Shown here one piece after another: positions 22,766 through 34,232 of a stretch of DNA of 49,453 nucleotides. Position 1 is the first letter of the stretch. Each line of letters opens with the position of its first letter. Position numbers and translations under genes: made by a program. The stretch is from a virus: IMG/VR virus record IMGVR_UViG_3300025728_000014, positions 1 to 49,453 of that record. One strand, 5' to 3'. Below the pieces are notes generated by a model that worked only from the letters and a program-made list of their open reading frames with translations, did not search any database and was not told the origin of the DNA.

Positions 22766-22987
22766 ATGAAGTATGAAGCATTAGAGAATAATGTCGGCAA
22801 GGTTGGTGTAAAGGTCGGCGATCATATCGAGATCGAATCAAAAAAGGTTGCTGATAAGCTAATCAAGCTAGGCTCAATCAAAGCAGTTAAAGAAGCTCCA
22901 AAGGAAGAGCCTCAAGAGGAAACCAAGGAAGAAGCTCCAAAGAAGCAAGCTCCTAAAAAGAGTGCCAAGAAAAAAGAGGACAAGTAA
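22766..22987 (+). CDS. Small head-associated protein with basic/acidic tail
   Basis: A 73-residue protein. The first 42 residues form a small domain (GKVGVKVGDHIEIESKKVADKLIKLG), and the rest is a low-complexity tail of K, E, P and A (EAPKEEPQEETKEE, KKQAPKKSAKKK). Similar short proteins lie between capsid and connector genes in other Firmicute phages. Exact role unknown. Confidence 0.65.
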   Translation: MKYEALENNVGKVGVKVGDHIEIESKKVADKLIKLGSIKAVKEAPKEEPQEETKEEAPKKQAPKKSAKKKEDK

Positions 22988-25440: not shown

Positions 25441-25791
25441 ATGGAATACTTACGTAAACAGAGCGCTCAAGAGGTAACTATTCTCGGAAGAAAGATGACT
25501 ATTGAAAAGCCGTCATTCGGAGAAAACAGAAAAATTATCAACCAATCTATGAAGTTCGACATGGAGACAAAGCAACCTGAGATCGACGCATCCCTGCTTG
25601 GAACCCTAAGAGCTATCAGCATCGTAAAAGATTGGGACTTGACAGATGAATCAGGTAAGAAGTTGCCTATCACGCTTGACACCTTTGACAACGTTCTTGA
25701 CCCTGAATTCGCATCTATGCTAGTTGACGAGCTTGGCAGAATTGAAGAAGCTGGCTTCACTCATGTAAGTGAAGATGAAAAAAAGCAATAA
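25441..25791 (+). CDS. Tail assembly chaperone, upstream frame (G-like)
   Basis: A 116-residue protein between tail tube and tape measure, the invariant position of the G/GT chaperone pair. Near its end it carries the slippery heptamer A-AAA-AAG (25779-25785), two codons before the stop. In-frame reading gives this short product; a -1 shift continues into the next frame to give a longer fusion. The protein is acidic and mixed alpha/beta. It helps assemble tail tube around the tape measure. Confidence 0.82.
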   Translation: MEYLRKQSAQEVTILGRKMTIEKPSFGENRKIINQSMKFDMETKQPEIDASLLGTLRAISIVKDWDLTDESGKKLPITLDTFDNVLDPEFASMLVDELGRIEEAGFTHVSEDEKKQ

Positions 25792-25851
25792 GGAATAGTG
25801 TCCTAAAGGGTTTGGATGGGAAAGCCGTTGAGAGCCCTCATCCAGCCCTTT
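25779..25851 (+). promoter_or_regulatory. Programmed -1 frameshift site with downstream hairpin
   Basis: The slippery A-AAA-AAG at 25779-25785 is in register with the codons of the upstream frame. Downstream, AAAGGG (25805-25810) pairs with CCCTTT (25846-25851) and TGGATG (25813-25818) with CATCCA (25839-25844), a strong stem. The spacer of about 19 bases is longer than usual. Confidence 0.75.
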
Positions 25852-26036
25852 TAGAATACGAACTTTGCAAACACTTTGGGTGGACAGTTCAAGAGCTATA
25901 CGACACACCCAATCATACAATTGAGTCTTTTGTCGAGATCATAAACTCTATAGCTGAACACGACAAGAAAGAAAGCAAGAAACAAAGACGAGAGCAAGTC
26001 AAACAAAAATTCGGTAACCCAGCAGGAGGGAGGTAG
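25785..26036 (+). CDS. Tail assembly chaperone, -1 frame extension (T-like)
   Basis: The frame is open from the slippery site through 26036 (83 codons, including HPALLEYELCKHFGWTVQEL and a basic helical C-terminus KKESKKQRREQVKQKFG). Read through the frameshift with the upstream gene it gives a fusion of about 198 residues. A TTG at 25812 lacks a good ribosome binding site, so separate initiation is unlikely. The pattern L-x-x-Y-x-x-x-x-W-x-V-x-E-x-x-x-x-P is common in T domains. Confidence 0.78.
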   Translation, partial: AIRNSVLKGLDGKAVESPHPALLEYELCKHFGWTVQELYDTPNHTIESFVEIINSIAEHDKKESKKQRREQVKQKFGNPAGGR

Positions 26037-28545: not shown

Positions 28546-31041
28546 ATGGCAGTAAAGAAATTTCCTATCTCGTGGATTGGCGTTTATAGAGCCGACCGTA
28601 ATAGTTATGTTGGGGGGAACAATATTCGAGTTGGTGGTTCTGCGGACTATCAATCCTATATTGGTATCCCCTCCGCAGTAAGAACAGCGATTACAACTTC
28701 TAGGACTTCACCAAAGTTACGCTTTGTCATGAACGTCACAAGTGGAGCTGAGTTCGACTTTGGTGCTCACAAGGAGACATCTAACAAGGCTGGCGGCACC
28801 ATGCCATATTACAACTATATAGGGCTACATCCTATATACGGAACTGGCTGGAGAACCACAGACCTTACTAGCGCTTTCATGTCGAGCTATCGTTCGGGAT
28901 CACGACAAGGTATTGTTCTCTATGGAGCAAGAAGCAACTCAGGGCAAGCATATGGTAAAACAGGTAACTCCAATGAGGCATACTTTGAAGTAGAAGGAAC
29001 TTGGAATGATCCACCGACAGCACCAAAGATCACGGCTCCTACAAGCACCACGATAGCTAATACAAGTGTTCAGGTCAAATGGGATGCGTCAACCGACAAG
29101 GAGAAGCCATCAAACCAGTTGACATACCAAGTTCAAATCTATAATGGATCATCTTGGAGCTCATCTAGTAATACTGGAGCTGGAGTAACTAACTTTTCGT
29201 ATGACACATCTAAAATGGCTGAAACATCGAGTGCACAAATCAGGGTAAGAGCATACGATGGTGAGGATTACTCTGGATGGTCAAACTCACCTAAGTTCAA
29301 AATCGTCAAGAATGTTGCCCCGAGTAAACCGACACAGACAGTCCCTAACGGTGGTCGAACAGTTGACCGTACGGAATCAATTCGTTTCACTTGGAAGCAT
29401 AATGATGATGGAGTACAAGCAGGGTTCAGAATTGCTTGGAGAACTGTCAATAACAGTGGAGATGTCGGCTCGTGGAATTATGTCAACGCTAGTGGGTACC
29501 GACAAAGTACAAACCAGTTTTTCGATTTTGCACCTAACACGTTCCCAGCAGGTAAAATTGAATGGCGTGTTAGCACAATGGATCAACAATCGCTCACATC
29601 GCCTTGGTCTGACATTCAAATATTCACAGCGGGTATACCTTCAAATGCTCCTATCATTTTAACACCAGAGCCAGATGAGATTGTCCCATCATCAAGTATT
29701 GTGGTCACTTGGTCGAGTATCAACCAGAGGCGCTATGAGATACAGCTATATGATGGAAGCACACAGGTTTACAGGAAAGCAGAGACGACAACAGCAAAGA
29801 ACGCACCTATTAGTTTTGACTTGGAGAACAACAAGACATACAGATTGCGTCTTCGTGTTGCTGATACAGAGTTTGACATCTGGAGTGATTGGACAGAAGT
29901 CACATTTCAAACCAATTTTGTTCCACCCGTCAAGCCTGAAATATTTGTAGAGTCAGACACAGAAGGAAACACAATCATAGTTTCTTGGACGAATGATCCA
30001 CCAGTTGTAACCGAGCCAATTCATGGAGTACCTACAAGTGGTATTGTACAGAACATCCAGTTCACTATTAATACTAACTATAGCGGTGATCAAGATGCTG
30101 GAGAGATTAGAACCATTTATGCATCAAACGCCAAGGTTGTTGCTCCTAGTGGTATAGTTTATGATTACAACCCAGAAGTAAAACAAATAAGCACAGGCTT
30201 AGAAGGTACAGTGGAAACAAGTACCGTAGATGAAGCATACCTCATGTTTACAGGAGCCGACCCTTCAAGATTTTCAAGTGCGGTTTTCAACGATACATAT
30301 TACTTCCGAGTTGTCAAGTTTGAGAACGATCAGTGGTATTACAATGACAACAGCCAAACATGGAAAGCATTCGACATCTATAGTGACGACTTCATCATAG
30401 GAAACCTTAAGAGGACTTCTACAGAGATTGACGGCATCGAGGAGTTAAACATCACTGGTGATACTTCGACGCCAGTAACAAGCAGGGTTGAGCTATACAG
30501 AAGACGTTACAACAGTACAACCGAGGCTGACTGGAATCTTATCAACACTGGAGATTCGAACTCTTCTTACACTGATTATACTCCTGCATCTGGTGTGACT
30601 TACGAGTATTACGTCAAAGCATGGGGAGACAACCAATCATTTTCCGACTCAGAGGTTAAAGAGGGAGAGGTCGAGTTCATTCACGCTTTTCTTCATAGAG
30701 CCTTGGTTCAGAGTGATTTTACCGTGTTTAGATACTCAGATGATCGCTCAGAGTCAAGAGGTCGCTCTGGTAGGTTTATGAGTTTTTCTGGTCGGGAGAA
30801 ACCAATATATGAGTATGGGTTCAATACCAATCAAACGGTTGATGTCTCATGGGATGTTGATACAAATGAAGAGTACCTCAACACAATTGACTTCCTCACA
30901 AGAAAAGAAACGTTCTTGTATAGAGATGGAGTCGGTCGGAGAATGTTCTGTATCATAGATGGCAACATCGAGGTAACTGACCAAATCCTCTCGGGTTGTA
31001 CTTTTTCAATAAGTCTAAGAGAGGTCGACTTCGAGGAGTGA
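28546..31041 (+). CDS. Large tail protein with fibronectin type III repeats
   Basis: An 831-residue protein after the tape measure. The N-terminal 150 residues form a beta-rich glycine-containing domain (a possible carbohydrate-binding jelly roll). About four FN3-like domains follow, each with the P-x-x-P...V-x-W-x-x pattern: PPTAPKIT (about 155), APSKPTQT (about 260), PSNAPIIL (about 365) and PPVKPEIF (about 462). A C-terminal tail domain has FRYSDDRSESRGRSGRFMSF. This suggests a distal tail or fibre-like component that binds the host wall. Confidence 0.75.
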   Translation: MAVKKFPISWIGVYRADRNSYVGGNNIRVGGSADYQSYIGIPSAVRTAITTSRTSPKLRFVMNVTSGAEFDFGAHKETSNKAGGTMPYYNYIGLHPIYGTGWRTTDLTSAFMSSYRSGSRQGIVLYGARSNSGQAYGKTGNSNEAYFEVEGTWNDPPTAPKITAPTSTTIANTSVQVKWDASTDKEKPSNQLTYQVQIYNGSSWSSSSNTGAGVTNFSYDTSKMAETSSAQIRVRAYDGEDYSGWSNSPKFKIVKNVAPSKPTQTVPNGGRTVDRTESIRFTWKHNDDGVQAGFRIAWRTVNNSGDVGSWNYVNASGYRQSTNQFFDFAPNTFPAGKIEWRVSTMDQQSLTSPWSDIQIFTAGIPSNAPIILTPEPDEIVPSSSIVVTWSSINQRRYEIQLYDGSTQVYRKAETTTAKNAPISFDLENNKTYRLRLRVADTEFDIWSDWTEVTFQTNFVPPVKPEIFVESDTEGNTIIVSWTNDPPVVTEPIHGVPTSGIVQNIQFTINTNYSGDQDAGEIRTIYASNAKVVAPSGIVYDYNPEVKQISTGLEGTVETSTVDEAYLMFTGADPSRFSSAVFNDTYYFRVVKFENDQWYYNDNSQTWKAFDIYSDDFIIGNLKRTSTEIDGIEELNITGDTSTPVTSRVELYRRRYNSTTEADWNLINTGDSNSSYTDYTPASGVTYEYYVKAWGDNQSFSDSEVKEGEVEFIHAFLHRALVQSDFTVFRYSDDRSESRGRSGRFMSFSGREKPIYEYGFNTNQTVDVSWDVDTNEEYLNTIDFLTRKETFLYRDGVGRRMFCIIDGNIEVTDQILSGCTFSISLREVDFEE

Positions 31042-31047
31042 TAACAA

Positions 31048-31347
31048 ATGCAAGATATAGCAAGAAATGGATACAGTGAATCAGAAATCAAAAAGATGCT
31101 ACACGGGGCGTATGGTAATAGGGCTATACGCTTCCGTTATGATGTAATTAACGCAGACGACCAAAAGAAGGACGAACTCACGAGAGTTGTATCTGGCTCG
31201 GTTAACATGAGTGCATTTTCAACCATTAAGCGTACAGCCAAGTTTACCCTTCAAGATGAGGGTATGGTCGTTCGTGATAAGCAGAGACCTGCAATCTGGG
31301 ATGACTATGCAGATAAGACGTGGGATCAATTAGAGGAGGGCATTTAA
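31048..31347 (+). CDS. N-terminal part of a DUF5048-like tail protein (split gene)
   Basis: A 99-residue protein. RAIRFRYDVINADDQKKDEL, VVSGSVNMSAFSTIKRTAKF and TLQDEG match the N-terminal DUF5048 region of large Firmicute phage tail proteins. In those proteins the sequence normally continues with (I/D)WLxDxIxPxxxxxMPDGG. Here the frame ends after a W-rich segment (AIWDDYADKTWDQLEEGI) and a beta-helix gene follows at once. The normal continuation appears at 33034. It probably still acts in the tail tip with the C-terminal half. Confidence 0.65.
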   Translation: MQDIARNGYSESEIKKMLHGAYGNRAIRFRYDVINADDQKKDELTRVVSGSVNMSAFSTIKRTAKFTLQDEGMVVRDKQRPAIWDDYADKTWDQLEEGI

Positions 31348-33021
31348 ATGGGTAACGCTACTAGATCAGACAATCTGGGTTTATATAGTTGGGAGTCACA
31401 AGACAAACTTTCTGAGTCTATCCCACAGATAAGCGCAAACTTTCAAGCATTAGATGAGATATTGAGCCGTGCATGGATCGACATAAAATCATATGGTTAT
31501 GGCGCAAAGGGTAACTACAACTTGAGTACTGGGACTGGTACAGATGACGCTCCAGCATTCCAAAAGGCTTTAGACAGAGCACAGAATAGATCGAGTAGCG
31601 TCACTATCTTTGTTCCAGATGGTACATACCGACTAGGAAACGAACTTAGGGTGTACAGTAATACAACTATCATTTTGAGCCCTAACGCTACCCTAGTAAG
31701 AGACCACTCAAAATATCTCTTGTTCAACGGAGTAAGAGCCGCAGATGGTGGATCACCTATCAGTGGATACAACGGAGATGGCAACATTCTTATCCAAGGT
31801 GGAACCCTAACAGGTCAAGGAAACAAGCAGACAGCCAAAGCTAGTATTGTCCACTTTGGTCACGCTCAAAATATCACCTTCGACAACGTAACCCTTAAGG
31901 ATTGTTCTAACTCGCATCACATCGAGTTCAACGCTTGTAAAGATGTATACGTAAAAAATTGTAACTTCCTCGGTTGGTACGGAGATGTTGATACATACAA
32001 TGAAGCTATCCAGTTAGACTTAGCAACTCCAGAGTTGACAACTGTAGCAGGCGGAGACTATACACCTTGTAAGAACGTCTACATTGATAACACATACTTT
32101 GGTAAGTCAACAACAGCAGGATCGAAACCAATTGGTCGAGGTGTTGGGTCTCACTCAGGGGCTATTAATCGTTTCCATGAGAACATTCATGTCACTAACT
32201 GTACATTCGATAGCACCGTAGAGTGGGCTTGTCGTGCTTATGCTTACAAGGACTTCTACTTTACTAATAACCAGATTATCAACTGTGGTCGTGGTGTCAA
32301 CGTGAGGTCGAATATCTCCACAGATGATAAAGATACTATTGATGCAAACACAGGAGCACAAACAGGTAAATCTCAAAACATTTCCAGATTCGTTATCGCC
32401 AATAACAAGTTTGGAGGTACTATGACAAATGGTCGTGCTATCGAGGTTTACGGAGAGGAAACTGGACGAATTTACTACACAGAAGTCACAGGAAACACAA
32501 TCAACTGTACTGGTCTTACAGTAGGAGAGGTAGTCTACCTGAACTATGTGAGATATGCAACAGTCACAGGTAACAACGTTGGCGGAGATAACACAGGTGC
32601 TTGCATTGCTCTAAACGGAATTACCACAGAGGTTACAATCGGAAACAACGTATGTGCCTTTGGAAATCGTGGAATCGCCGTATATGGTGCAGGTGTTGTA
32701 ATGCAGAATATCAGCATCACAGGTAACACTATTCGAGGAATGCAATTGAGCGGAATACACCTCGATAGTATTGATGGTTTCTCCTGCGTTGGTAACACCG
32801 TTTTCGATTGCAACAAAAAAGCTGGCGGAGATGAAAACCATATCAGAATCGTTGTCGGTAACAAAAATGGTACGGTCAGTGGTAACCTCTGTACAGTAGC
32901 TTGCCCAACAAGTATTTATGTTTCTAATACTAACTCTCGTATTAACGTCAGCGGAAACGTGCTATCAGGAGGACTTACCAATAATTCATCTGGAGGAGTG
33001 TCCGCAAACAATATCATCTAA
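31348..33021 (+). CDS. Right-handed beta-helix tailspike (pectate-lyase-like)
   Basis: A 557-residue protein. N-terminal about 60 residues (NLGLYSWESQDKLSESIPQISANF) look like a virion-attachment region. SYGYGAKGNYNLSTGTGTDD with APAFQKALDRAQ is the classic start of pectate-lyase-3-type phage tailspikes. Repeated N-x-I/V-x-x-N-x-F coils follow (YVKNCNF, VYIDNTYFG, FVIANNKFGG, TVTGNNVGG, VSGNVLSGG). It likely binds or degrades host surface polysaccharide. It sits between the two halves of another tail gene and is in the same reading frame as both. Confidence 0.85.
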   Translation: MGNATRSDNLGLYSWESQDKLSESIPQISANFQALDEILSRAWIDIKSYGYGAKGNYNLSTGTGTDDAPAFQKALDRAQNRSSSVTIFVPDGTYRLGNELRVYSNTTIILSPNATLVRDHSKYLLFNGVRAADGGSPISGYNGDGNILIQGGTLTGQGNKQTAKASIVHFGHAQNITFDNVTLKDCSNSHHIEFNACKDVYVKNCNFLGWYGDVDTYNEAIQLDLATPELTTVAGGDYTPCKNVYIDNTYFGKSTTAGSKPIGRGVGSHSGAINRFHENIHVTNCTFDSTVEWACRAYAYKDFYFTNNQIINCGRGVNVRSNISTDDKDTIDANTGAQTGKSQNISRFVIANNKFGGTMTNGRAIEVYGEETGRIYYTEVTGNTINCTGLTVGEVVYLNYVRYATVTGNNVGGDNTGACIALNGITTEVTIGNNVCAFGNRGIAVYGAGVVMQNISITGNTIRGMQLSGIHLDSIDGFSCVGNTVFDCNKKAGGDENHIRIVVGNKNGTVSGNLCTVACPTSIYVSNTNSRINVSGNVLSGGLTNNSSGGVSANNII

Positions 33022-33033
33022 GGAGGTATGACC

Positions 33034-33984
33034 ATGGCAACACTTGAAGATTACTTTATCTTCACTGAGACAGTAGTCGAAAACAAAATAGATTGGCTGG
33101 TCGATAAGATACAACCTTGGGTCATATTTCAGATGCCTGATGGGGGAGAGATCGAGTTCCCCCTCGGTATCTTCTACCTGAGTACGCCAACAAGGAATGA
33201 CCAAAATGGGAATATCTATAGAGAGGTAGAGGCTTATGATGGTCTTATCGTTCTGGATCAAGACAAGTTCACCGACCGTTATACTATCAAGAAAGGTACA
33301 ACCTACGAGAAAGCTGTCAGGGATATTCTTAAAAGTGCTGGCATCTCGAAAATAAACATCGAATTTACAGGTAACCTCAACTTGACAAACGATAAAGAGT
33401 TTGATCTCGGAGTCAGCAAACTCGAAGCAATTAACGAACTTCTAACGATGACGAACAACACCCCTTTATGGGTTGATGCTTACGGGTATTACATTACGAC
33501 TCCTTATCGTCCGCCAAGTAGTAAGACTTTTGATTACACTTACGATGATAGAGAGCTCTCAATTGTCATGGAAGATGTCGAAGAGGAATTTGATGTATAC
33601 GATGTAGCCAACACTTGGGTAATTACAGCAAGTAACCCTGAGAGTCCGCCTCTTGTGGCAAGACGGGTAAACAATAGCCCTGACAGTCCGACCTCGACAA
33701 TCAACAGACGGAGAACCATTGTAGACTTTCGAGAAATCGAGGACATAAGCTCTCAAGCGACACTGGACGGGATGGCAGATCGTATCGCCTTTGAAGCATC
33801 CCAAGTTTATGGAAAGGTAAGGTTCGAAACACCTATCATGCCATTCCATGAGTATTATGATTCTATAAAGTTCGTTTATACACCTCTGGGTATCGAAGCA
33901 GTATTTTCAGAGTCAAGCTGGGAGATACCGCTAGAAGCAGGGGCAACGATGAAGCATGAAGCCAGAAGGGTGATTGATATATGA
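33034..33984 (+). CDS. C-terminal part of a DUF5048-like tail protein (split gene)
   Basis: A 316-residue protein. ATG 33034 is chosen because AGGAGG lies seven bases upstream. After about 20 new residues the sequence KIDWLVDKIQPWVIFQMPDGG, EFPLGIFYLSTPTR, REVEAYDGLIVLDQDKFTDRY and KLEAINELLTMTNNTPLWVDAYGYY matches the main body of the tail proteins whose N-terminus is encoded at 31048. It therefore seems to be the rest of a formerly single tail-tip gene, now carrying its own start. It probably forms part of the tail hub. Confidence 0.72.
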   Translation: MATLEDYFIFTETVVENKIDWLVDKIQPWVIFQMPDGGEIEFPLGIFYLSTPTRNDQNGNIYREVEAYDGLIVLDQDKFTDRYTIKKGTTYEKAVRDILKSAGISKINIEFTGNLNLTNDKEFDLGVSKLEAINELLTMTNNTPLWVDAYGYYITTPYRPPSSKTFDYTYDDRELSIVMEDVEEEFDVYDVANTWVITASNPESPPLVARRVNNSPDSPTSTINRRRTIVDFREIEDISSQATLDGMADRIAFEASQVYGKVRFETPIMPFHEYYDSIKFVYTPLGIEAVFSESSWEIPLEAGATMKHEARRVIDI

Positions 33985-34232
33985 TGAATAGCCAAGAATT
34001 TGTGAGCATTGTTAACGAGCTTATTGAGAAGAACAAAGACAAGGGAGCATACAAGATTGGTAGTATACCCTCTGGTTACTCTGGAGGGGAGCCAGCCATT
34101 TTGTTTGACGGTGAAGACACTCCATCTGGAAAGACATATAAGCGCCTTGGGAGCTATACTCCTGTAGCTGGCGATCGTGTTTTACTGGCGAGGGTTGCTG
34201 GAACGTACGTTATTCTCGGCTCAATTAAATAA
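33981..34232 (+). CDS. Small tail-tip protein, 83 aa
   Basis: Overlaps the preceding gene by four bases (ATGATG over TGA). A beta-rich small protein (KIGSIPSGYSGGEPAILFDG, LGSYTPVAGDRVLLARVAGTYVILGSIK) with an OB-fold-like strand pattern, similar to short baseplate or tail-hub proteins in Gram-positive phages. Its position at the end of the tail genes fits that role. Confidence 0.65.
   Translation: MMNSQEFVSIVNELIEKNKDKGAYKIGSIPSGYSGGEPAILFDGEDTPSGKTYKRLGSYTPVAGDRVLLARVAGTYVILGSIK

Follow-up and report, generated by a model that had tools for sequence, protein, structure and literature searches.

In the phage genome analyzed here, the gene for the tail hub is carried in two pieces, with a whole tailspike gene between them. 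The window, i.e., the entire 49,453-nt stretch of DNA that was analyzed, is a near-complete genome of an Andromedavirus (a siphophage of Bacillus pumilus), and its hub C-fragment shares ~95% identity with those of Glittering, Andromeda, Curly, and Bolokhovo. We found that the genes starting at positions 31048 and 33034 encode the N- and C-terminal portions, respectively, of a single gp27/Tal-like tail hub (phrog_1887/phrog_26795). The genes run in the order virion structural protein, hub N-fragment, spike, hub C-fragment, and a small downstream gene. The coordinates that a first-pass annotation of the bare sequence had given for the three central genes (31048-31347, 31348-33021, and 33034-33984) were confirmed. 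The features of the window that are used below are as follows:

22766..22987, plus strand: 73-aa ORF behind the major capsid gene, at the position of a receptor-binding gene in 056SW001B and vB_BpsS-36
28546..31041, plus strand: upstream neighbor, 831-aa virion structural protein (phrog_10519) with an Ig-like domain; conserved hub context
31033..31038, plus strand: Shine-Dalgarno sequence GAGGAG of the hub N-fragment, 9 nt before the ATG at 31048
31048..31347, plus strand: hub N-fragment gene, 99 aa, phrog_11128 (profile match, alignment, AlphaFold2)
31264..31344, plus strand: N-side half of the W-rich hub linker, IWDDYADKTWDQLEEGI (aligned with the linkers of unsplit hubs; predicted to be disordered in the unsplit AlphaFold2 model)
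31334..31339, plus strand: Shine-Dalgarno sequence AGGAGG of the spike, inside the 3' coding end of the N-fragment; conserved in relatives
31348..33021, plus strand: beta-helix tailspike/depolymerase gene, 557 aa, phrog_2234 (Pfam Pect-lyase_RHGA_epim, Beta_helix)
31348..31461, plus strand: N-terminal anchor motif of the spike (TRSxNLGLYSW...NFQALDE), of a type found in receptor-binding proteins elsewhere in the genomes
33021..33026, plus strand: Shine-Dalgarno sequence AGGAGG of the hub C-fragment, overlapping the spike stop codon; conserved in relatives
33034..33984, plus strand: hub C-fragment gene, 316 aa, comprising the C-side linker residues and then the rest of the hub
33981..34232, plus strand: downstream neighbor, 83-aa protein (phrog_12764), overlapping the C-fragment stop codon

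Against phrog_26795 (728 aa), the N-fragment matched positions 8 to 60 (E = 3.9e-12) and the C-fragment positions 414 to 728 (E = 5.7e-86); the C-fragment also matched phrog_1887 (E = 6e-72). The two fragments together amount to 415 aa, compared with 409 to 412 aa for the single hub gene of 056SW001B, Jayan, vB_BpsS-36, and the locus L026, and they aligned end to end with unsplit hubs, joining without a gap. After the remaining linker residues, the C-fragment continues with a conserved IDWL..RIQP motif, and unsplit relatives read straight through the linker without a break. An uninterrupted hub gene was present in 056SW001B and other Bacillus subtilis phages, vB_BpsS-36, Jayan, PS1, and L026, the closest unsplit phages being 056SW001B, vB_BpsS-36, and Jayan. 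The majority of hubs in ~120 distinct loci (IMG/VR, GenBank phages, and bacterial genomes) were single ORFs of ~370 aa with hub position 72 directly abutting the C part, indicating that the linker itself is an addition and the site of the break. The central claim of the first-pass annotation, that a hub gene had been split by a whole spike gene, was thus borne out: the alignment and the unsplit model place the fragments as adjacent parts of one hub, and relatives lacking the spike have one uninterrupted gene. The same N-spike-C architecture was found in all 20 Andromedavirus records of the phage collection and in IMG/VR loci, including L025, a metagenomic relative with a homologous spike, and because of this recurrence we do not regard the split as chance or an artifact. 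A search of the window for a second hub found none. When the genome collection was scanned with a single hub protein, no loci were recovered; the scan with hub alignment A5 recovered six, including Bacillaceae (Peribacillus, B. methanolicus, Salirhabdus, and Oceanobacillus).

The fragments had at first been described as DUF5048-like, an identity that we rejected in favor of the gp27/Tal type, as neither fragment nor any of five unsplit hubs gave a Pfam profile match to DUF5048; DUF5047/DUF5048 appeared only as structural neighbors in BFVD. The AlphaFold2 model of the unsplit L026 hub (pLDDT 88, pTM 0.84) retrieved Mu gp44, T4 gp27, Listeria Tal (3gs9), 80alpha, and VgrG hubs in Foldseek (best E = 1e-18, probability 1.00); a search of hub sequences against solved structures gave no match. 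In this model, the N part contributes one helix and four strands to the hub, corresponding to residues 1 to 72 of the N-fragment (the hub core), while residues 73 to 99 form the W-rich linker. Residues 76 to 105 of the L026 model (the linker) had a pLDDT below 50, so that the break coincides with a linker predicted to be disordered in the unsplit hub. Hub models were single-chain only, and the fold of the window hub was approached through homology and a lower-confidence model in which the two TAA codons were read through. The one fold that the first-pass annotation had suggested examining was only partly recovered in this read-through model: it reproduced the helix and strands of both the N and the C part with mostly high local confidence, but its overall pTM was low (0.47), and Foldseek matched it mainly over the C part. 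It therefore supports compatibility with a single fold, short of proof that the N and C parts pack together. The unsplit homologue is predicted to share the fold of the gp27/Tal/VgrG hubs (T4 gp27, Mu gp44, Listeria gp18 3gs9, and 80alpha), but those are single chains, whereas the chain of the window hub is broken inside the first beta-rich domain.

As the first-pass annotation had noticed, each of the two downstream genes has its own AGGAGG. For the C-fragment, an in-frame ATG at 33028 lies only 1 nt from the Shine-Dalgarno sequence and the one at 33034 lies 7 nt away, making 33034 the better start. The three genes do share one phase in the window, as had also been reported, but we consider this a coincidence without meaning, because the phase differs in Novomoskovsk (spike start offset 299 nt), L014, and L096. 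As a separate observation, the tail assembly chaperone position (25441-26036) holds two adjacent ORFs, one of 116 aa and a second of 74 aa that starts with TTG; the 056SW001B annotation joins the corresponding pair by a frameshift.

The window spike matched phrog_2234 (E = 1.1e-166) and Pfam Pect-lyase_RHGA_epim (E = 5.6e-10) and is 91% identical to Bolokhovo Gp28, a depolymerase that lyses B. pumilus lawns when purified; purified Novomoskovsk Gp31, a diverged protein encoded at the same position, does so too (PMC9658697). These are orthologous spike genes in the same place, and neither "hub" nor "split" is mentioned in the main text of that report. The window spike, judged by its sequence, belongs to this proven depolymerase family and would by homology have the same activity. 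Two spike alleles that are 30% identical occur in Andromedavirus between hub fragments that are ~90% identical in protein, and DNA identity drops sharply at the spike boundaries when these alleles are compared. Moreover, the window spike is 41% identical to that of L025 and 30% to that of Novomoskovsk, and the hubs show the reverse order. The sharp boundaries and the conflict between spike and hub relationships are the signature of an exchange of the spike as a unit. The 83-aa gene behind the hub corresponds to a 197-aa gene in Novomoskovsk (L003:6948-7541), annotated as a receptor-binding protein, which is another variable receptor-binding position.

Relatives with an intact hub carry the same receptor-binding families elsewhere. 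vB_BpsS-36 encodes a homologue of the window spike (29% identity) just behind the major capsid gene, and 056SW001B has, at the same place, a homologue of the beta-propeller protein of L096 (33%); Jayan has a different spike, encoded immediately after its hub gene. Behind the capsid gene of the window and of Bolokhovo, there was only the 73-aa ORF, with no receptor-binding gene. Two further observations concern 056SW001B: an annotated tail spike (L181:1-335, gene 11) is encoded ahead of the scaffold and capsid genes, and the beta-propeller fiber behind the capsid gene (L181:4300-5844, gene 20) is likewise far from the intact hub. Receptor-binding proteins at these various places have a related N-terminal anchor and differ in the remainder. 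The anchor is clearest as YTxxLGLYKPNRxD...NFxxID and is more diverged in the window spike. Since the same families occur elsewhere in relatives with an unsplit hub, the spike would dock through its own anchor regardless of where its gene lies. The first-pass annotation had described a receptor-binding or depolymerase module slotted into a hub gene; the spike gene does sit inside the hub gene, but rather than a domain, the module was probably a complete gene that relocated together with its own anchor. In Anath, a relative, the gp10 "tail fiber" was detected in virions (PMC7368026).

The linker also serves as an insertion site in other phages. In L096 (6277-9005), a distant IMG/VR phage, the hub is split at the same linker by a 464-aa beta-propeller protein of the phi11 class (PF21311), with a TAG/GTG stop-start overlap at the junction. 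GBK1, L029, L030, and PcaP2EGY carry in-frame inserts of ~320 to 326 aa at this linker, and other hubs have F5/8-type, laminin-G-like, or CBM-like domains at this or neighboring loops. Inserts at the linker and nearby loops of several hubs mark a region where binding modules tend to sit. Alongside these, L068, L071, L095, L138, and L145 have in-frame F5/8-type, laminin-G-like, and CBM_4_9-like inserts in a second loop ~20 residues further on, and Zuko and L173 have inserts in yet another hub loop. Split ORFs in L005, L087, L114, L116, and L157 were left out of the gene-insertion count, being frameshifts or single stops seen in one or two records. Among these, L114:2340-3443 has a single in-frame stop between RIRP and the C part, which may reflect a sequencing error or, alternatively, a different route to a broken hub. 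L005:4733-6897 (Staphylococcus phage MVC_VPHSA1) has a frameshifted hub closest to the GBK1/PcaP2EGY type with an in-frame insert; VPHSA2 also matches, and the stated Staphylococcus aureus host of MVC_VPHSA1 is odd beside Geobacillus-type relatives.

On the hub tree, fused hubs occupied nearly all deeper branches and split hubs were nested among them; as fused is the outgroup state, the split is derived. The Andromedavirus clade (support 100/100) fell inside a well-supported 11-row clade that also held four unsplit hubs and L025. A single split, spread by recombination or followed by re-fusion, would account for what L025 and the Andromedaviruses have in common, namely, the spike (41% identity), a C-fragment starting MAxxxDYF, and a linker three residues longer. 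In AU tests, uniting these two as one clade was borderline and not clearly rejected (p = 0.0506), and L096 could group with the W-linker hubs (p = 0.53). However, placing all three split lineages (Andromedavirus, L025, and L096) together was rejected on the N+C tree (p = 0.0106), though not on an earlier C-only tree (p = 0.437), and L096 differs in having an unrelated receptor-binding class and different stop/start junctions. We therefore regard a single event as a serious contender that is somewhat on the doubtful side, and slightly favor two or more independent insertions into this linker; given the AU results on the three-lineage and the Andromedavirus/L025 groupings and the shared C-fragment start, two origins of the split seem likely.

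Both hub fragments are under strong purifying selection: dN/dS between Andromedaviruses was 0.03 to 0.08 for the N-fragment and 0.02 to 0.04 for the C-fragment. Annotators label only the C-fragment "baseplate hub" (in Bolokhovo, "baseplate hub protein") and the N-fragment "hypothetical," as would suit a C-fragment that works alone as the hub beside a dead N-terminal remnant. This is very unlikely, for the N-fragment retains its start, Shine-Dalgarno sequence, and length in 20 of 20 Andromedavirus records at 90 to 97% identity, has the low dN/dS just given, corresponds to the part that gives the helix and four strands of the hub model, and is also kept in the distant split hubs of L025 and L096. 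Covariation across 98 hubs (Meff 71, too few sequences) gave top couplings that were not enriched for N-C pairs. Purifying selection on both fragments, the single fold of the unsplit model, and the lack of another hub in the window lend indirect support to interacting fragments, and we infer that the N- and C-fragments co-assemble into a trimeric hub.

Two other readings fared worse. That two genes were ancestral and became the single hub gene of the relatives by fusion might be suggested by the W-linker clade, which mixes split and fused members, and by a tree that needs three state changes; this is highly improbable, as nearly all deeper branches and the nearest outgroups are fused (GBK1, L029, L030, the Peribacillus locus L175, and dozens more) and ~370-aa hubs join exactly at the break. 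That stop read-through, frameshifting, or splicing makes the spike an in-frame insert of a single hub chain is hardly credible: the shared phase in the window and L025 would fit, as would the genuine in-frame inserts that GBK1 and others carry at this linker, but the phase is lost in Novomoskovsk, L014, and L096, tandem TAATAA stops occur in L025, every gene comes with a Shine-Dalgarno sequence and start of its own, the junctions gave no Rfam match to an intron or other RNA, and recombinant spike made from its own start was of the expected size and active (PMC9658697).

The explanation that we consider highly probable is that a relocatable spike gene landed in a tolerant loop of the hub, giving a "genes-in-pieces" hub and three proteins from the mRNA. 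A whole spike gene, with its own start, stop, Shine-Dalgarno sequence, and N-terminal tail-docking motif, would have entered the gene of a presumably trimeric gp27/Tal-like hub at the linker, a segment predicted to be disordered and already variable in length. In the linker, a stop codon would have arisen ahead of the spike, and a start with its ribosome-binding site behind it. A search for flanking repeats as an insertion trace found none that was convincing. From three ribosome-binding sites, the mRNA would yield the 99-aa hub N-fragment, the 557-aa spike, and the 316-aa hub C-fragment, and the two hub fragments would associate to rebuild the first beta-rich domain in the virion. The position of the spike gene inside the hub may be tolerated rather than required, and it would let spike alleles swap between conserved hub flanks. 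A broader proposal, in which the linker is a recurrent landing site where unrelated receptor-binding genes have settled more than once, and in which the halves still assemble and act as homology arms for the exchange of spike alleles, strikes us as nearly an even call, falling just short.

The nearest genetic precedent is provided by the genes-in-pieces enzymes of T4-like phages, which are split by homing endonucleases yet still functional: Aeh1 nrdA split by mobE, a T4 topoisomerase gene split by mobA, and the Aeromonas phage 43A/43B polymerase (PMC2988022). As in those cases, a free-standing gene lies inside an essential phage gene that is uninterrupted in close relatives, both parts are under selection, and there is no other copy. 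The two polypeptides of these enzymes must reassemble, as the hub parts presumably do. In those systems, the insert is a selfish homing endonuclease and the target a soluble enzyme; here, the insert is a pectate-lyase-like spike, so that a homing endonuclease was ruled out, and the phage's own depolymerase/receptor-binding gene interrupts a structural component of the virion, the hub. On the structural side, the closest parallel is "evolved" Dit and Tal, in which carbohydrate-binding modules are inserted in loops of tail-tip proteins, including the gp27-like domain of Tal (PMC7291167); GBK1-type relatives resemble these in carrying their inserts in frame. Evolved Dit and Tal have in-frame domains of one polypeptide, whereas here a separate gene breaks the chain, and an evolved Tal was rejected for the window because stop and start codons lie on both sides and the phase is not conserved. 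The window combines both precedents. The phi11 receptor-binding protein (PF21311; PMC4901313) represents the class of the L096 break protein and of the 056SW001B protein behind the capsid gene; its binding domain is unrelated to the beta-helix spike of the window, and in 056SW001B the hub is intact. In the literature searched, from which most subscription journals fell outside, we found no description of a hub split by a receptor-binding gene.

Among essential phage genes, splits are familiar chiefly as the marks that homing endonucleases leave. Here, the interrupter is a host-recognition gene belonging to the phage itself, and the protein that it interrupts is the central tail hub, presumably a trimer, which forms the passage for DNA. 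This suggests that two chains can make up a hub and that an exposed hub linker accepts anything from nothing up to a whole gene. It further suggests that receptor-binding genes move among several places while a common docking motif is kept, so that these phages may offer a natural map of the sites that tolerate receptor-binding modules.
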